Both the position numbers and the translations under genes were made by a program. DNA of 55,608 bases from a virus, in IMG/VR virus record IMGVR_UViG_3300012920_000048, positions 1 through 55,608 of that record; one strand, written 5' to 3'. This document shows, piece by piece, positions 1 to 10,849 of this stretch; positions within the stretch are counted from its first letter, which is position 1; each line of letters opens with the position of its first letter. The notes under the pieces were generated by a model. It was not told where the DNA came from. It saw nothing but the letters and a program-made list of their open reading frames with translations, and ran no database searches.

Positions 1-2619
1 CATCGCCTCATCAAAGCCGGCTGATGCTTCTTCCTCGAACTTATCAAAGTCGGCTGATGCTTTTTCCGCGAACGCATCAAGACTTCCATCATTACCTTGT
101 GCTTTGTCTATCTCATCAAATATTCCTTTTCTCTCTTTTCTTAGAGCTCGGAGTTCTTTTTCTACTTTAGATTTCTTTGCCATCCAAGCATCTTTTGCTG
201 CCATTGGGTCATCAGTTGCTCTCCAGCTGTCATTCAATGCTGGATCGCCTAGTTCTCCCAGTGCAGCGCTTTCTTCTTCTTTGGCAGCTATTCTTTTATC
301 TACATCTTTAAGTTTCTTAAAAGCAGCATCTTCAGCAGCTGAATCTGGAATTCCAGACCTTTTAGGTTTAGCAGGTTTAGCTGTGCCAGTACCTGTACCT
401 GTTTTAGCTGTCGGCCCTCTTCCACTTTTAGCATTTTTCATTGCTTGAGCTGCTAAATCTCCGGCGCTCATATCTAACATCTCATTTGCTTTTGCGTGTG
501 TTCCTCCCAATTCTTGTGAAACGGTATCAACAGCTTCTGTTGGAGTAGCGCCCGCCTCCATCAAGTCCTTCATTTTTTGTTCTCCCTGTTCGGGAGTTAA
601 AGGTTTTTTCTTGGCAGTAACTTCTATCTCTTGAAGTGCCTCATCTGTACTTACTAAACCGCCTTCATTTTTCTGAACTTTGGCACCGCCCTTTGCCTCT
701 TGATACTCTTCATCGGACATTAACATAAATGGTTCAGATTCCGCACGCGGGTTTAGCGCCCGATATTCTTCATCGGATTTCATTTTAAATGGTTCAGATT
801 CCTTGAGTGGGTTTTTCTCCCGATATTCTTCATCGGATTGGAGTTTAAATGCTTCTCCTTGATCTACTTCTGCAATTGATGTAGATCTCAACTTATCTAA
901 CATTTCTTGATCTGTTTGTTTGAGAGCAGGTTTATCAGACTCTGTTTTCTTAGCTTCTACAACAGGTGCTACGACTTCATCTACAACTTGTTCTTTTACT
1001 TTCTCTTTTATTTCTCCACCAAAGAATTCATATAAAGATTTAGATAAATCGTTACCATCATCTCCTCCCAACATACCAAAGGAAAGTCCTGATATTAATC
1101 CTCCTGCTCCACTAGCTAACTTTTGTCCTAGTGTAGCATCTTCACCTTCTTCTAAATTAAATTCTGATAATCCTTCTCTTGTAAATGCTTGTTGCCCACC
1201 TTTAAACAAACCATAACCTGCCGAAGCTACTGCCGCTGCTGGACCAGCAAATCTTGCTGCACCTGCTGCTAATCTTGCTCCGCCTCTAAGTAATTTGCCT
1301 CCTGCAGATTTTGCTTTACCTAATAATGCTTTACCTTTTGTTGCTAAAGCACCGCCCATTAATCCTTCTACAACACCGGGTCCTCCGCCTCCACCGCCAG
1401 CACCGACGCCTCCGCCTTCTTTTAATACTTCTAATACTTCTTTAAGTGTTTCTTCTGTGGCAAGTTTATCTTTATCTGCTGCTATGCCTGTTCTACTAGC
1501 TACTATTTTTTCTCTTTTACTTTGTGCTGGCGCAGGTCCTGTTCCTGCTGCAGTTGGTGTATCCACACCATATTGTTCTCTCATTTTTTGAGCATAGTCT
1601 TTCTTTTCAGTACTCAACTCAGGTGTAAGATAATCCAAGCCTTGGTTTATTGCTTCTTGTTCTGCCTCTAATCTGCCTGCTCTATTTGCTGAACTTGTTT
1701 CTTTAAATGGTGCAAATTTTGTTAGTCCGCCAGAGTCTGCTTTCCCCATAATATTTTCCATAGAAAACATTTGCTTAAGACCTTCTTTACTAAATAAATC
1801 TGTGCCTTGCTCTACACCAAATATAGATCCTTTGATAGCTCCTTTTACTCTATCTCCATAAGTTCCTTTAACGTCTTGTTCTACTTGATCTAATCCTAAA
1901 GATTCTGCCAGTTCAGGACTTGCTGTTTTTCTAAGTTTTGCTATTTTTGTAAGGGCTGCTTTTTGATCGCCTTCCTTAAGAGCTGCTCCCAATTCTTTTA
2001 AATTTTTTGTATTTGTTTCGTCGCCTTGTAATGCTTCTGTAATTTTCCCATCACCTCTATCTGCAAATATGTTTGATGCTAAAGTAGATCTTCCTTGGGA
2101 TACTCTTCTTTTTGAAGCATTTTTTGTTGCGCCTATAATTCCGGTAGCTTGTTTAGCCACACTTGCAAGATCAACAAGTGCTGTGGATGAACTTCCGCCT
2201 CCACTGGTAGTGCCTCCTCCGGTACCACCACCGCCACCGCCAGCGCCTCCGCCTCCGGTGCCTCCACCAATTCCTCCTCTTTGAAGGATTTGTAATATTT
2301 TTTGGTTTTGTTCCAGCATTACAGTTCTTGCTGCTTTAGCCCCAGCATTATGTTTTACTTGTTTTACATTAATAGCTTGTTGTTCTTTTTGAGCCTTTCT
2401 TGTAGCCTTATTCGCTTTCATTTCGCTATTAAACATGATGACTTCTTTAGCGATTTGAATCTTATTAAATTTCTTATTTGATTCAGCGTCATCTTTTAAT
2501 GCTTTTGTTTCCGCTTTAATAGAAGCTTCTAAATCTTCAATGTCTTTGGAAATATCAGCGTCAGGCAATTCCCCAATAAGATTTGCTATTCCTTGTAACT
2601 GTTGATCTATGTCTGGCAT
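1..2619 (-). CDS. Tape-measure-like tail protein (C-terminus cut off by window edge)
   Basis: The open frame runs for 873 codons from ATG at 2619 to the window edge without a stop. It starts MPDIDQQLQGIANLIGEL. The first ~100 residues are charged and helical. A Gly-rich linker follows, then a long Ala/Lys/Glu-rich body with a second Gly-rich linker and two short hydrophobic stretches (around LAAGAARFAGPAAAV and SGAGGLISGLSFGML). Great length, helical and hydrophobic segments, and position right after gp26 and its possible frameshift extension fit a tail tape measure, the role of gp29 in T4 and gpH in lambda. No specific motif proves it, so a large structural or hub protein is the alternative. 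It begins 3 nt after the extension ORF, so translational coupling is likely. Confidence 0.6.
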   Translation of the reverse strand, partial: MPDIDQQLQGIANLIGELPDADISKDIEDLEASIKAETKALKDDAESNKKFNKIQIAKEVIMFNSEMKANKATRKAQKEQQAINVKQVKHNAGAKAARTVMLEQNQKILQILQRGGIGGGTGGGGAGGGGGGTGGGTTSGGGSSSTALVDLASVAKQATGIIGATKNASKRRVSQGRSTLASNIFADRGDGKITEALQGDETNTKNLKELGAALKEGDQKAALTKIAKLRKTASPELAESLGLDQVEQDVKGTYGDRVKGAIKGSIFGVEQGTDLFSKEGLKQMFSMENIMGKADSGGLTKFAPFKETSSANRAGRLEAEQEAINQGLDYLTPELSTEKKDYAQKMREQYGVDTPTAAGTGPAPAQSKREKIVASRTGIAADKDKLATEETLKEVLEVLKEGGGVGAGGGGGGPGVVEGLMGGALATKGKALLGKAKSAGGKLLRGGARLAAGAARFAGPAAAVASAGYGLFKGGQQAFTREGLSEFNLEEGEDATLGQKLASGAGGLISGLSFGMLGGDDGNDLSKSLYEFFGGEIKEKVKEQVVDEVVAPVVEAKKTESDKPALKQTDQEMLDKLRSTSIAEVDQGEAFKLQSDEEYREKNPLKESEPFKMKSDEEYRALNPRAESEPFMLMSDEEYQEAKGGAKVQKNEGGLVSTDEALQEIEVTAKKKPLTPEQGEQKMKDLMEAGATPTEAVDTVSQELGGTHAKANEMLDMSAGDLAAQAMKNAKSGRGPTAKTGTGTGTAKPAKPKRSGIPDSAAEDAAFKKLKDVDKRIAAKEEESAALGELGDPALNDSWRATDDPMAAKDAWMAKKSKVEKELRALRKERKGIFDEIDKAQGNDGSLDAFAEKASADFDKFEEEASAGFDEAM
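701..864 (-). repeat. Three ~60-bp tandem repeats inside the tape-measure-like gene
   Basis: Three copies with a 60-nt period, the last one diverged, encode a ~20-residue unit resembling EPFKxxSDEEYRxxNPxxES. The period is a multiple of three, so the frame is kept. They lie in a charged, probably disordered segment. Repeat-number change here would alter protein length by 20 residues per copy. Confidence 0.8.
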
Positions 2620-2622
2620 TTT

Positions 2623-2822
2623 TTAAAACCTATTTCTGTTTGCTCTTTCCTTTGCTCTCTCGGCCTTCTCTTTCAAGTGACCTACTAACATACTAACATA
2701 AACTTCCCTTTCCCAGGGCATCATACTTTCTAACTCTGTTAGACTATATTGATGTTCTTGCATTAACAAAAAATTAGTCCTGTAATAATTATCAAGACTC
2801 TCCTGAGAAAGGCTTAGGCGAA
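2623..2822 (-). CDS. Minus-1 frameshift extension of gp26 (gpGT-like), or a separate 46-residue ORF
   Basis: This frame has no good start of its own at its upstream end. It is entered exactly by a -1 slip at the T TTT TTC heptamer at the end of gp26. The extension reads RLSLSQESLDNYYRTN and so on for 65 residues, ending at TAA (2623-2625), 3 nt before the next ATG. It would give a ~292-residue gp26 fusion. The tail is Lys/Arg/Glu-rich and helical at its end (LKEKAERAKERANRNRF). An internal ATG at 2763 could alternatively give a free 46-residue protein. The geometry matches lambda G/GT, where the frameshifted chaperone precedes the tape measure. Frameshifting itself is inferred. Confidence 0.65.
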
Positions 2823-3500
2823 AAAATGTTCGTATCCATTAATATTAACTATTTGTTCTGCTCCACAATGTGGACATCTGTAGTCTATATTATGAGATAA
2901 CGCTGGCATCTTTGCCATGAAAGCTTTCATCTCTTCCATAATATTAAGAGGAAGTTCTTCAATAAATTCTATTTGTTCCTCTTTTGTTGCCTCAGAAAAA
3001 ATACTTTTTTCTTCTTCTGTTTCAATTGACTCTATACATTCAGCTACATAATCTATATCTTCTAATCCGCCCTTGGCAATTTTTAATGCACTGGGGTATT
3101 TCATTTTTATAGCCATGCTATCGCCAACCTTAATAACAGGATCTGGCAAACTGTCTAATCCTTTTACTTTAAGATTTTCTAATTCTAATTCATAAGGAGA
3201 TGTTTCTTTACACTCCCCACAAATAAGATTAAATTCTTGTGTCTGTCCTACAGAGTCCATTCTTATTTTCATAAACAAACCTTGTAGATCATACATTGTT
3301 AATTCTTCTACATCGAGTTCTCCGAATGTACAATTATTAACAACTTGTGAAGCAGCCCTAACCATCTCTTCGAAAGAGGACTCTTCATCACTAGCCATCA
3401 TTAGAATCTTTTGTTCTCTTACAAGAAAAGGCCTATACTTTACTACTTCTCCTGTAGATAAACTTGCTTCCGATATTGGCTGTTCAATTTTAGGTAACAT
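2814..3500 (-). CDS. gp26: gp26-like baseplate hub / tail assembly chaperone
   Basis: The 228-residue protein is close to T4 gp26 in length (about 208). It starts MLPKIEQPISEASLSTGEVV, followed by KYRPFLVREQK, the usual opening of the T4 gp26 family. It carries a split zinc-ribbon: C94xxC97 in the middle and C209xxC212 near the end. In T4, gp26 is needed to assemble the central hub. Position directly before a tape-measure-like gene suggests the chaperone role played by lambda gpG. The last codons overlap a perfect -1 slip site, so two products are likely. It is the fourth gene of a minus-strand run with gp4, gp2 and the tube-fold protein. Confidence 0.85.
   Translation of the reverse strand: MLPKIEQPISEASLSTGEVVKYRPFLVREQKILMMASDEESSFEEMVRAASQVVNNCTFGELDVEELTMYDLQGLFMKIRMDSVGQTQEFNLICGECKETSPYELELENLKVKGLDSLPDPVIKVGDSMAIKMKYPSALKIAKGGLEDIDYVAECIESIETEEEKSIFSEATKEEQIEFIEELPLNIMEEMKAFMAKMPALSHNIDYRCPHCGAEQIVNINGYEHFFA
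2820..2826 (-). promoter_or_regulatory. Candidate -1 ribosomal frameshift site T TTT TTC
   Basis: In the gp26 zero frame the codons are CAT TTT TTC GCC TAA, so the heptamer T TTT TTC fits X XXY YYZ exactly. Slippage gives TTT TTT and then CGC CTA AGC, which stays open for 65 codons. The zero-frame stop is only two codons after the slip site. I did not find a clear downstream hairpin by eye. A GGAG-containing stretch lies about 16 nt further on. Confidence 0.6.
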
Positions 3501-4682: not shown

Positions 4683-4690
4683 TATTTATA
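4683..4690 (-). promoter_or_regulatory. Late promoter TATAAATA for gp2, butted against its ATG
   Basis: Read on the minus strand the sequence is TATAAATACTTACATGGC. The spacer between TATAAATA and ATG is 5 nt, so with T4 spacing the transcript would begin at the A of ATG. The same 18 bases occur before gp25 on the plus strand. Confidence 0.75.
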
Positions 4691-9815: not shown

Positions 9816-10421
9816 ATGAGTTGCGGTCCAAGTTCAGCAATGAGAGATTTAGCAGATCAAATAGATCAAGCAAATGATGCTTTGGATGCTGCTATTAACG
9901 ATTCACCATTAGGTAAATTACTCACATTAAAAGAAGAAGCAGAAGCTAAAGTAAATGCCATGATGGATAAATTGGAAGCTGCCATACCAGGAGCTATTGG
10001 AGGATTTGTAGATAAAGCATTTGACGAATTGCCCATGGGTGATCAAATGAAAGAAGTTGCAGGTTTGATAGCTTTAGGATATTTACAAAAAGATGTTGTG
10101 GAAAATAAGATAGATGTAATGAAAGCAAAGTATTCTAACTTAGATGTAGATATAGACAATGTAGCAGACTTGCTAAGAAGTGGTGCAGCAGATATAGATG
10201 ATTTGTGTAAACTGTTACCTAATGTTTCTACACAAGGTGTTAATTTAATTGTTAAAGGTATACCAACATCATTTCCTAATGTAGATCCTGTGGCTATGGT
10301 GAAAAAAGGAGATATACCTAAACTTCCTGATATAGGAAAAGTATTTTTAGATGTAGAGGTTGAAGCTAAAGATCAAGCTGATGATTTTTTAAGTTTAGAA
10401 CTGCCAAGATTCAATTTATAG
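9816..10421 (+). CDS. Unknown protein between gp5 and gp25
   Basis: I do not recognise this 201-residue protein. It starts MSCGPSSAMRDLADQIDQAND and is mostly predicted helix, with heptad-like stretches (LTLKEEAEAKVNAMMDKLEAAI). The C-terminal third is rich in Pro and Val (KGIPTSFPNVDPVAMVKKGDIPKLP). It has no transmembrane segment or catalytic motif. Its place directly after the spike gene suggests a virion or spike-associated role. A strong AAGGAGGATAAG site precedes the ATG. Confidence 0.75.
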   Translation: MSCGPSSAMRDLADQIDQANDALDAAINDSPLGKLLTLKEEAEAKVNAMMDKLEAAIPGAIGGFVDKAFDELPMGDQMKEVAGLIALGYLQKDVVENKIDVMKAKYSNLDVDIDNVADLLRSGAADIDDLCKLLPNVSTQGVNLIVKGIPTSFPNVDPVAMVKKGDIPKLPDIGKVFLDVEVEAKDQADDFLSLELPRFNL

Positions 10422-10435: not shown

Positions 10436-10849
10436 ATGGCCTTACTAAGAAGAAAAGTTGCAAGAATATACAAGGACATTGATTTGTCTTTTGGTAGTAA
10501 TAGTATTACTGGCGATCTTAATAAAAAACTAGATGTCAGTGCTGTAAAACAGTCTTTAAAAAATTTAATATTAACAAAACCTTATGAAAGACCTTTTAAT
10601 CCTGCACTATCATCAGAACTAGCAGGATTGTTATTTGAGAATGCAGATGTTTTTACTGCCAATAGAATACGAAAAACAATAGAATTATTGATTAAAAATT
10701 ATGAGCCTAGATGTAAGTTACGTCTAGTAAATCCAATTGAAGTTGAGCCAGATTATGATAGAAACGCTATAAATGTAAAGATTCATTTTGAAGTTATTGC
10801 AATAAATGAGCCACAAGAATTAACAGTTAGACTAGAGAGATTACGATAA
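10436..10849 (+). CDS. gp25: gp25-like baseplate wedge protein
   Basis: The 137 residues match T4 gp25 in length (about 132). Start MALLRRKVARIYKDIDLSF and the core SVKQSLKNLILTKPYERPF-type segment (here AVKQSLKNLILTKPYERPF) are typical, as is EPRCKLRLVNPIEVEPDYD. gp25 holds the wedge core bundle and is related to type VI secretion TssE. No Shine-Dalgarno sequence is possible on a transcript from the adjacent promoter, so translation would be leaderless or rely on read-through from upstream. Its stop overlaps the gp6 start (TAATG). Confidence 0.93.
   Translation: MALLRRKVARIYKDIDLSFGSNSITGDLNKKLDVSAVKQSLKNLILTKPYERPFNPALSSELAGLLFENADVFTANRIRKTIELLIKNYEPRCKLRLVNPIEVEPDYDRNAINVKIHFEVIAINEPQELTVRLERLR

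Follow-up and report, generated by a model that had tools for sequence, protein, structure and literature searches.

A conserved -1 frameshift in the tail assembly chaperones of long-tailed phages was reportedly described by Xu, Hendrix and Duda in 2004. The slippery heptamer of lambda G/GT is G GGA AAG, as opposed to T TTT TTN at the gene 26 locus investigated here. The survey of frameshifts in long-tailed phages is named in the PRFect paper (PMC10885494), a passage of which also notes, with reference to Vladimirov et al. (2022), that frameshifting is replaced in some T4-like phages by a short gene together with a long fused one. In the 2025 Adele paper, Vladimirov et al. (2022) are credited with poly-T -1 frameshift signals in the TAC-N genes of T4-like phages (PMC12846349); the original article on T4-like chaperones (Vladimirov, Gautam and Davidson, 2022, Virology 566:9) is referred to here as these citing papers present it. 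The preliminary description of the present locus, whose author was aware of no well-established T4-like case, has to be corrected on this point. In the chaperone locus of Vandenendeviridae and Andersonviridae a GTTTTT -1 signal has been described (PMC12846349). That locus resembles the present one in its conserved poly-T site, in a -1 frame that is never closed and in a downstream piece annotated as a separate gene, although these are other phage families and the likeness is one of evidence, not of compared proteins. On this evidence, and as far as the citing papers render the original work, the phenomenon is already known in kind and the novelty of the present case is limited. The present analysis adds a quantitative test in a lineage that has no close relatives in culture, and it links the predicted fusion protein to gp51 of phage T4.

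The window, i.e. the whole stretch of viral DNA that was analysed, comprises 55,608 nucleotides, and the features discussed below are listed in Table 1. The gp26 protein matched Pfam PF12322 (T4_baseplate; E 7e-52) and PHROG 150 ('baseplate hub'; E 8e-53). The last codons of gene 26 are CAT TTT TTC GCC TAA and contain the heptamer T TTT TTC, as had been described previously, with a single codon (GCC) between the heptamer and the TAA. The heptamer is of the X XXY YYZ type, lies in the phase of the 0 frame and precedes the 0-frame stop. It reads TTT TTC in the 0 frame and TTT TTT in the -1 frame (Phe Phe in both), and its phase fits a -1 slip because both codons re-pair as TTT. Also in agreement with the previous description, the -1 frame stays open for 65 sense codons (RLSLS...NRF), up to a stop at 2625-2623 located 3 nt ahead of the next gene (ATG at 2619), and a 46-codon ORF starting with the ATG at 2763 exists within it, which comprises 48 codons if the TTG at 2769 is taken as the start. 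Of the 65 residues of the extension, 63 were covered by a match to PHROG 634, the 'baseplate hub assembly catalyst' (gp51), at E 8e-26; a Pfam search gave no model matching the extension. Judged by its PHROG match, the extension is a member of an already known family, gp51. The conceptual 292-aa fusion matched PHROG 150 in one continuous stretch (residues 2-274; profile positions 7-278 of 282), with a score of 219 bits versus 181 bits for gp26 alone.

Table 1. Features of the gene 26 region and their positions in the window.
Feature	Position	Strand	Basis
Gene 26, encoding the 228-aa gp26 (putative short form of the tail assembly chaperone)	2814..3500, stop included	-	Pfam PF12322, PHROG 150
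Slippery heptamer T TTT TTC	2820..2826	-	Conserved as T TTT TTN in 175/176 loci
-1 frame extension, gp51-like, 65 codons + stop, C-terminal part of the predicted 292-aa gp26-gp51 fusion	2623..2820	-	PHROG 634
Stretch of the extension between the gp26 stop and the first -1-frame ATG/GTG/TTG	2770..2813	-	Purifying selection in the -1 frame
ORF called separate gene 51 by annotators of relatives (TTG 2769 or ATG 2763)	2623..2769	-	Annotation of relatives
Ala/Gly-rich ORF of 873 codons, running off the window edge, probably the tape measure	1..2619	-	Position; weak PHROG matches of relatives
T4-type late promoter match TATAAATA	4683..4690	-	Ahead of the minus-strand genes leading to gene 26

The locus is best read as a case of programmed -1 ribosomal frameshifting, by which gene 26 would yield a short chaperone, gp26, and a long form, gp26-gp51, equivalent to lambda G/GT; on sequence comparison, the probability of this reading was put at about 0.92. 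It is strongly supported because the in-phase heptamer is invariant, the -1 frame is always open and under purifying selection, and T4 gp51 provides a counterpart, so that the original proposal of a frameshifted gp26 chaperone in this T4-like phage was borne out by the comparison. Most ribosomes would terminate at the TAA of gene 26 and release the short gp26; a minority would slip back by one base on T TTT TTC, with both tRNAs re-pairing with TTT, and would read on in the -1 frame to release the 292-aa fusion as the long form. The predicted short and long forms, which have a common N-terminal part and both occur as genes in T4, may act like lambda gpG and gpGT, with the common part co-assembling and the few long chains connecting the assembly, through their gp51 part, with the probable tape measure encoded immediately downstream, as tail and baseplate hub form. 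The sequences themselves show the site and its conservation, the open -1 frame, coding selection in that frame and the homology between the fusion and T4 gp51; the slipping itself, the slip rate and the chaperone role are what we infer from these comparisons. As in lambda G/GT, the short ORF carries the heptamer near its 3′ end and is overlapped by a -1 ORF, the short and the predicted long form have their N-terminal part in common, and a probable tape-measure gene follows. It differs from lambda in its protein family, T4_baseplate (PF12322), for which no relation to solved proteins was detected.

IMG/VR was searched for gp26 loci with gp26 and with the fusion as queries, and together with 17 annotated isolates 176 loci were obtained. 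A T TTT TTN heptamer, in phase at the 3′ end of gp26, was present in 175 of these, among them 16 of the 17 annotated isolates, which represent several lineages of the T4 superfamily, and was placed exactly one codon ahead of the gp26 stop in 167 loci. The variants were TTTTTTC (98 loci), TTTTTTA (57), TTTTTTT (19) and TTTTTTG (1); the heptamer of AF3 is T TTT TTG. The -1 frame was open in all 176 loci, for 164-206 nt past the stop or to the contig end. Both the heptamer and the open frame, whose conservation in relatives had been suggested as a check, were thus retained. Isolates with gp26 loci include Kyanoviridae, Schizotequatrovirus, Emdodecavirus, Chakrabartyvirus, Menderavirus and Pootjesviridae. 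Kyanoviridae, Schizotequatrovirus, Emdodecavirus, Pootjesviridae and others share with the window gp26 and the 'gp51 baseplate hub assembly catalyst', their arrangement, the heptamer and the open -1 frame, but are annotated as having two genes, and their gp26 proteins are 20-38% identical to that of the window. The predicted fusion is hidden in public records because relatives, among them loci L083, L088 and L091, have gp51 annotated separately as 'baseplate hub assembly catalyst' or, in the case of ACG-2014e and S-CAM1, carry no annotation for it. The sole exception was Vibrio phage K362 (L098, 3100-3330), in which the heptamer is lost (TCA CTT TTC AAG TAA TGG) and the gp51 ORF retains an ATG overlapping the gp26 stop; a single gp26-type gene was found in its genome. 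A broken heptamer combined with an own start, which the preliminary description had named as speaking against frameshifting, was therefore seen in this one distant locus of the 176 and in none of the window's lineage, and it can be read either as a natural loss of the frameshift or as a switch to coupled initiation. A T TTT TTA heptamer was also observed in the unannotated Pseudoalteromonas phage XG4, which is outside the count of 176.

Codon usage at the site was likewise constrained. The residue preceding the two phenylalanines varies (S, H, D, N, G), yet its codon ended in T in all 105 clusters, and the first Phe of the site was encoded by TTT in 105/105 clusters, TTT making up 74% of the Phe codons elsewhere in these genes. 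Other FF pairs in the same gp26 genes formed such a heptamer in 2 of 91 cases. The probabilities calculated for this codon evidence, near 1e-19 and 3e-14, assume independence, and kinship among the loci makes the true values less extreme.

A counterpart that holds both parts in one frame was found in phage T4. T4 gp51 matched PHROG 150 from end to end (13-280 of 282), and in the joint alignment it crossed the junction without a gap, opposite the window's EHFFRLSLSQESLDNYYRTN; T4 gp51 therefore holds in frame the residues that in the window are accessible only via a frameshift or an atypical start. At the corresponding position (GLKEFFELL) T4 gp26 ends, with TTC TTT and no heptamer. On the side of family membership, hhalign gave 97% to gp51 of T4/phage 25. 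The AlphaFold model of the window's gp26 was confident (pLDDT 92.5) and resembled gp26-type or baseplate hub proteins in BFVD, while a comparison of gp26 with the PDB revealed no relative by sequence and none by fold at E<=0.001. By sequence and fold, gp26 and the predicted fusion of the window belong to the T4 gp26/gp51 family; the modelled fold would lower the chance of common descent with the solved lambda or HK97 chaperones and would leave functional analogy. When whole genomes were searched with PHROG 150, two full-length copies were found in T4 and in Aeromonas phage 25, and one copy in each of 13 other phage genomes, five of which showed a short extension as a separate match. By tblastn, full-length in-frame relatives of T4 gp51 were detected in 1,339 phage records, the majority belonging to enterobacterial and related T4-like phages. 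Records with the window-type gp26 numbered 623 and those with the extension 590, cyanophages and vibriophages predominating; all three counts refer to matches of the proteins. T4 gp26 corresponds to the short form, and the predicted fusion is collinear with T4 gp51; in T4 each form has a full-length gene of its own and gene 26 ends without a slippery site, whereas the window has one gene and a predicted frameshift.

We consider it rather likely that frameshifting was the original way of making the two chaperone forms in the T4 superfamily and still predominates there, that gene 51 of T4 and close relatives, separate and essential, goes back to a frameshift product frozen by duplication of the gene with the extension fused in frame, and that the gp51 of hundreds of deposited genomes is thus a mis-annotated C-terminal domain; many cyanophage and related genomes are probably affected. 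A 2010 review (PMC3004832) described gp51 as a protein that T4 requires but whose function was unknown. In marine T4-like phages, the predicted fusion would define its role clearly, namely that of the C-terminal portion of a long tail chaperone. Frameshift and gene duplication would represent two solutions within one virus superfamily, so that the need for a fixed short-to-long ratio becomes testable.

Selection on the extension was investigated most strictly in loci (117/175) whose -1 frame offers none of the starts ATG, GTG and TTG ahead of codon 18, using disjoint nearest-neighbour pairs and only -1 codons 5-17, all of which lie past the gp26 stop. In the window the first start in this frame is codon 19, the first Phe of the site being counted as 0. 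Comparison of synonymous and nonsynonymous change, another check suggested at the outset, indicated purifying selection, with a dN/dS of 0.27 (0.16-0.39) in 38 pairs of start-free loci and of 0.12 (95% 0.04-0.19) in 18 pairs from the window's own lineage. Changes in this lineage fell on the third position of the -1-frame codons in 27 cases, on the second in 8 and on the first in 1. Read in frame 0, the same segment gave a ratio of 2-12, and frame +1 was full of stops. The dN/dS values and the position bias in this start-free segment argue that the segment past the gp26 stop is translated as protein in the -1 frame, which a normal start codon could not explain.

These data bear on the alternative that survives best, namely that gene 51 is an independent small gene translated from its own start by reinitiation or translational coupling after gp26, with no fusion being formed. 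Many relatives have a gp51 start of their own, most are annotated with gene 51 as an independent gene, all annotators encountered here take a separate start for granted, and in some loci (ValKK3, K362) the start is near the gp26 stop or overlaps it. For T4 gene 26 the use of a rare internal start codon is reported, and odd starts are thus conceivable. However, the 117 loci that offer none of the three start codons before about codon 18 still show protein-like conservation there, no convincing Shine-Dalgarno sequence was found ahead of the TTG and ATG starts of the window, and a separate gene would leave both the invariant heptamer and the T4 gp51 homology across the junction unexplained. Independent translation of gene 51 is hence considered improbable. 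Slightly less probable still is that the fusion arises when the transcribing polymerase slips on the T run, so that the mRNAs differ in length and no ribosomal slip is required. The site is indeed a T run, and seven or eight T are found in some relatives; in the window and most relatives, however, it consists of six T ended by C or A, which is short for slippage by RNA polymerase, and the heptamer suited to tRNA slippage is kept in phase in all loci but one.

Frameshifting on the gp26 heptamer was also compared with what chance yields in the window. Among the ORFs of at least 100 aa, 58 in-frame X XXY YYZ heptamers were counted, and only two of them lead at least 10 codons past the stop of their own ORF, the gp26 site and a site around 10385 on the plus strand. 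This second heptamer (GAT TTT TTA, window 10380-10390) concerns the ORFs 9816-10421 and 10436-10849; it lies 11 codons before the stop, and its -1 frame runs through the next ORF. A viral-contig scan gave no relatives of the 201-aa ORF carrying it, and these were found by whole-record searches; the heptamer was absent from relatives about 40% identical (GAA TTT TTA, GAA TTT TTT). A late-promoter match TATAAATA is present between the two genes. The second heptamer is probably a chance site and was used as a negative control. That the gp26 heptamer and its open frame are a mere coincidence of two overlapping ORFs, as the AT-rich genome, its 58 heptamers and the chance entry of the second site into the next ORF might suggest, has a negligible probability, since the second site is broken in relatives and has a promoter match between its genes, whereas 175/176 loci retain the gp26 site.

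Possible stimulators, which a programmed frameshift does not need in every case, were weak in the window itself. RNA structure downstream of the gp26 heptamer was unremarkable (z about -1 to -1.3 in the window), an Rfam search gave no match, and the upstream Shine-Dalgarno-like stretch was weak. Relatives outside the window's lineage carry a Shine-Dalgarno-like GAGGGA/AAGGA about 8-12 nt ahead of the heptamer, which is somewhat stronger than predicted by synonymous recoding (-6.7 versus -5.1 kcal/mol) and could be a dnaX-like stimulator.

The next gene had been called tape-measure-like in the preliminary description. It is indeed Ala/Gly-rich, at least 873 codons long and directly downstream, with two weakly hydrophobic segments. 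A PHROG search with the ORF itself gave no match, and the matches to tape-measure PHROGs were weak and confined to ORFs at the same place in relatives (P-HM1, ValKK3, S-SM2). The ORF is likely to be the tape measure, although this is weakly shown. Tandem repeats of 60 and 33 bases (SEPFKMKSDEEYR... repeated) were observed inside it at window positions 726-855 and 9-80 (minus strand), and possibly represent a region variable with tail length. No late-promoter match was found between gene 26 and the extension. In the window as a whole, TATAAATA late-promoter matches occurred at 20 sites, against 8.9 in shuffled sequence, as expected of a T4-like late region.
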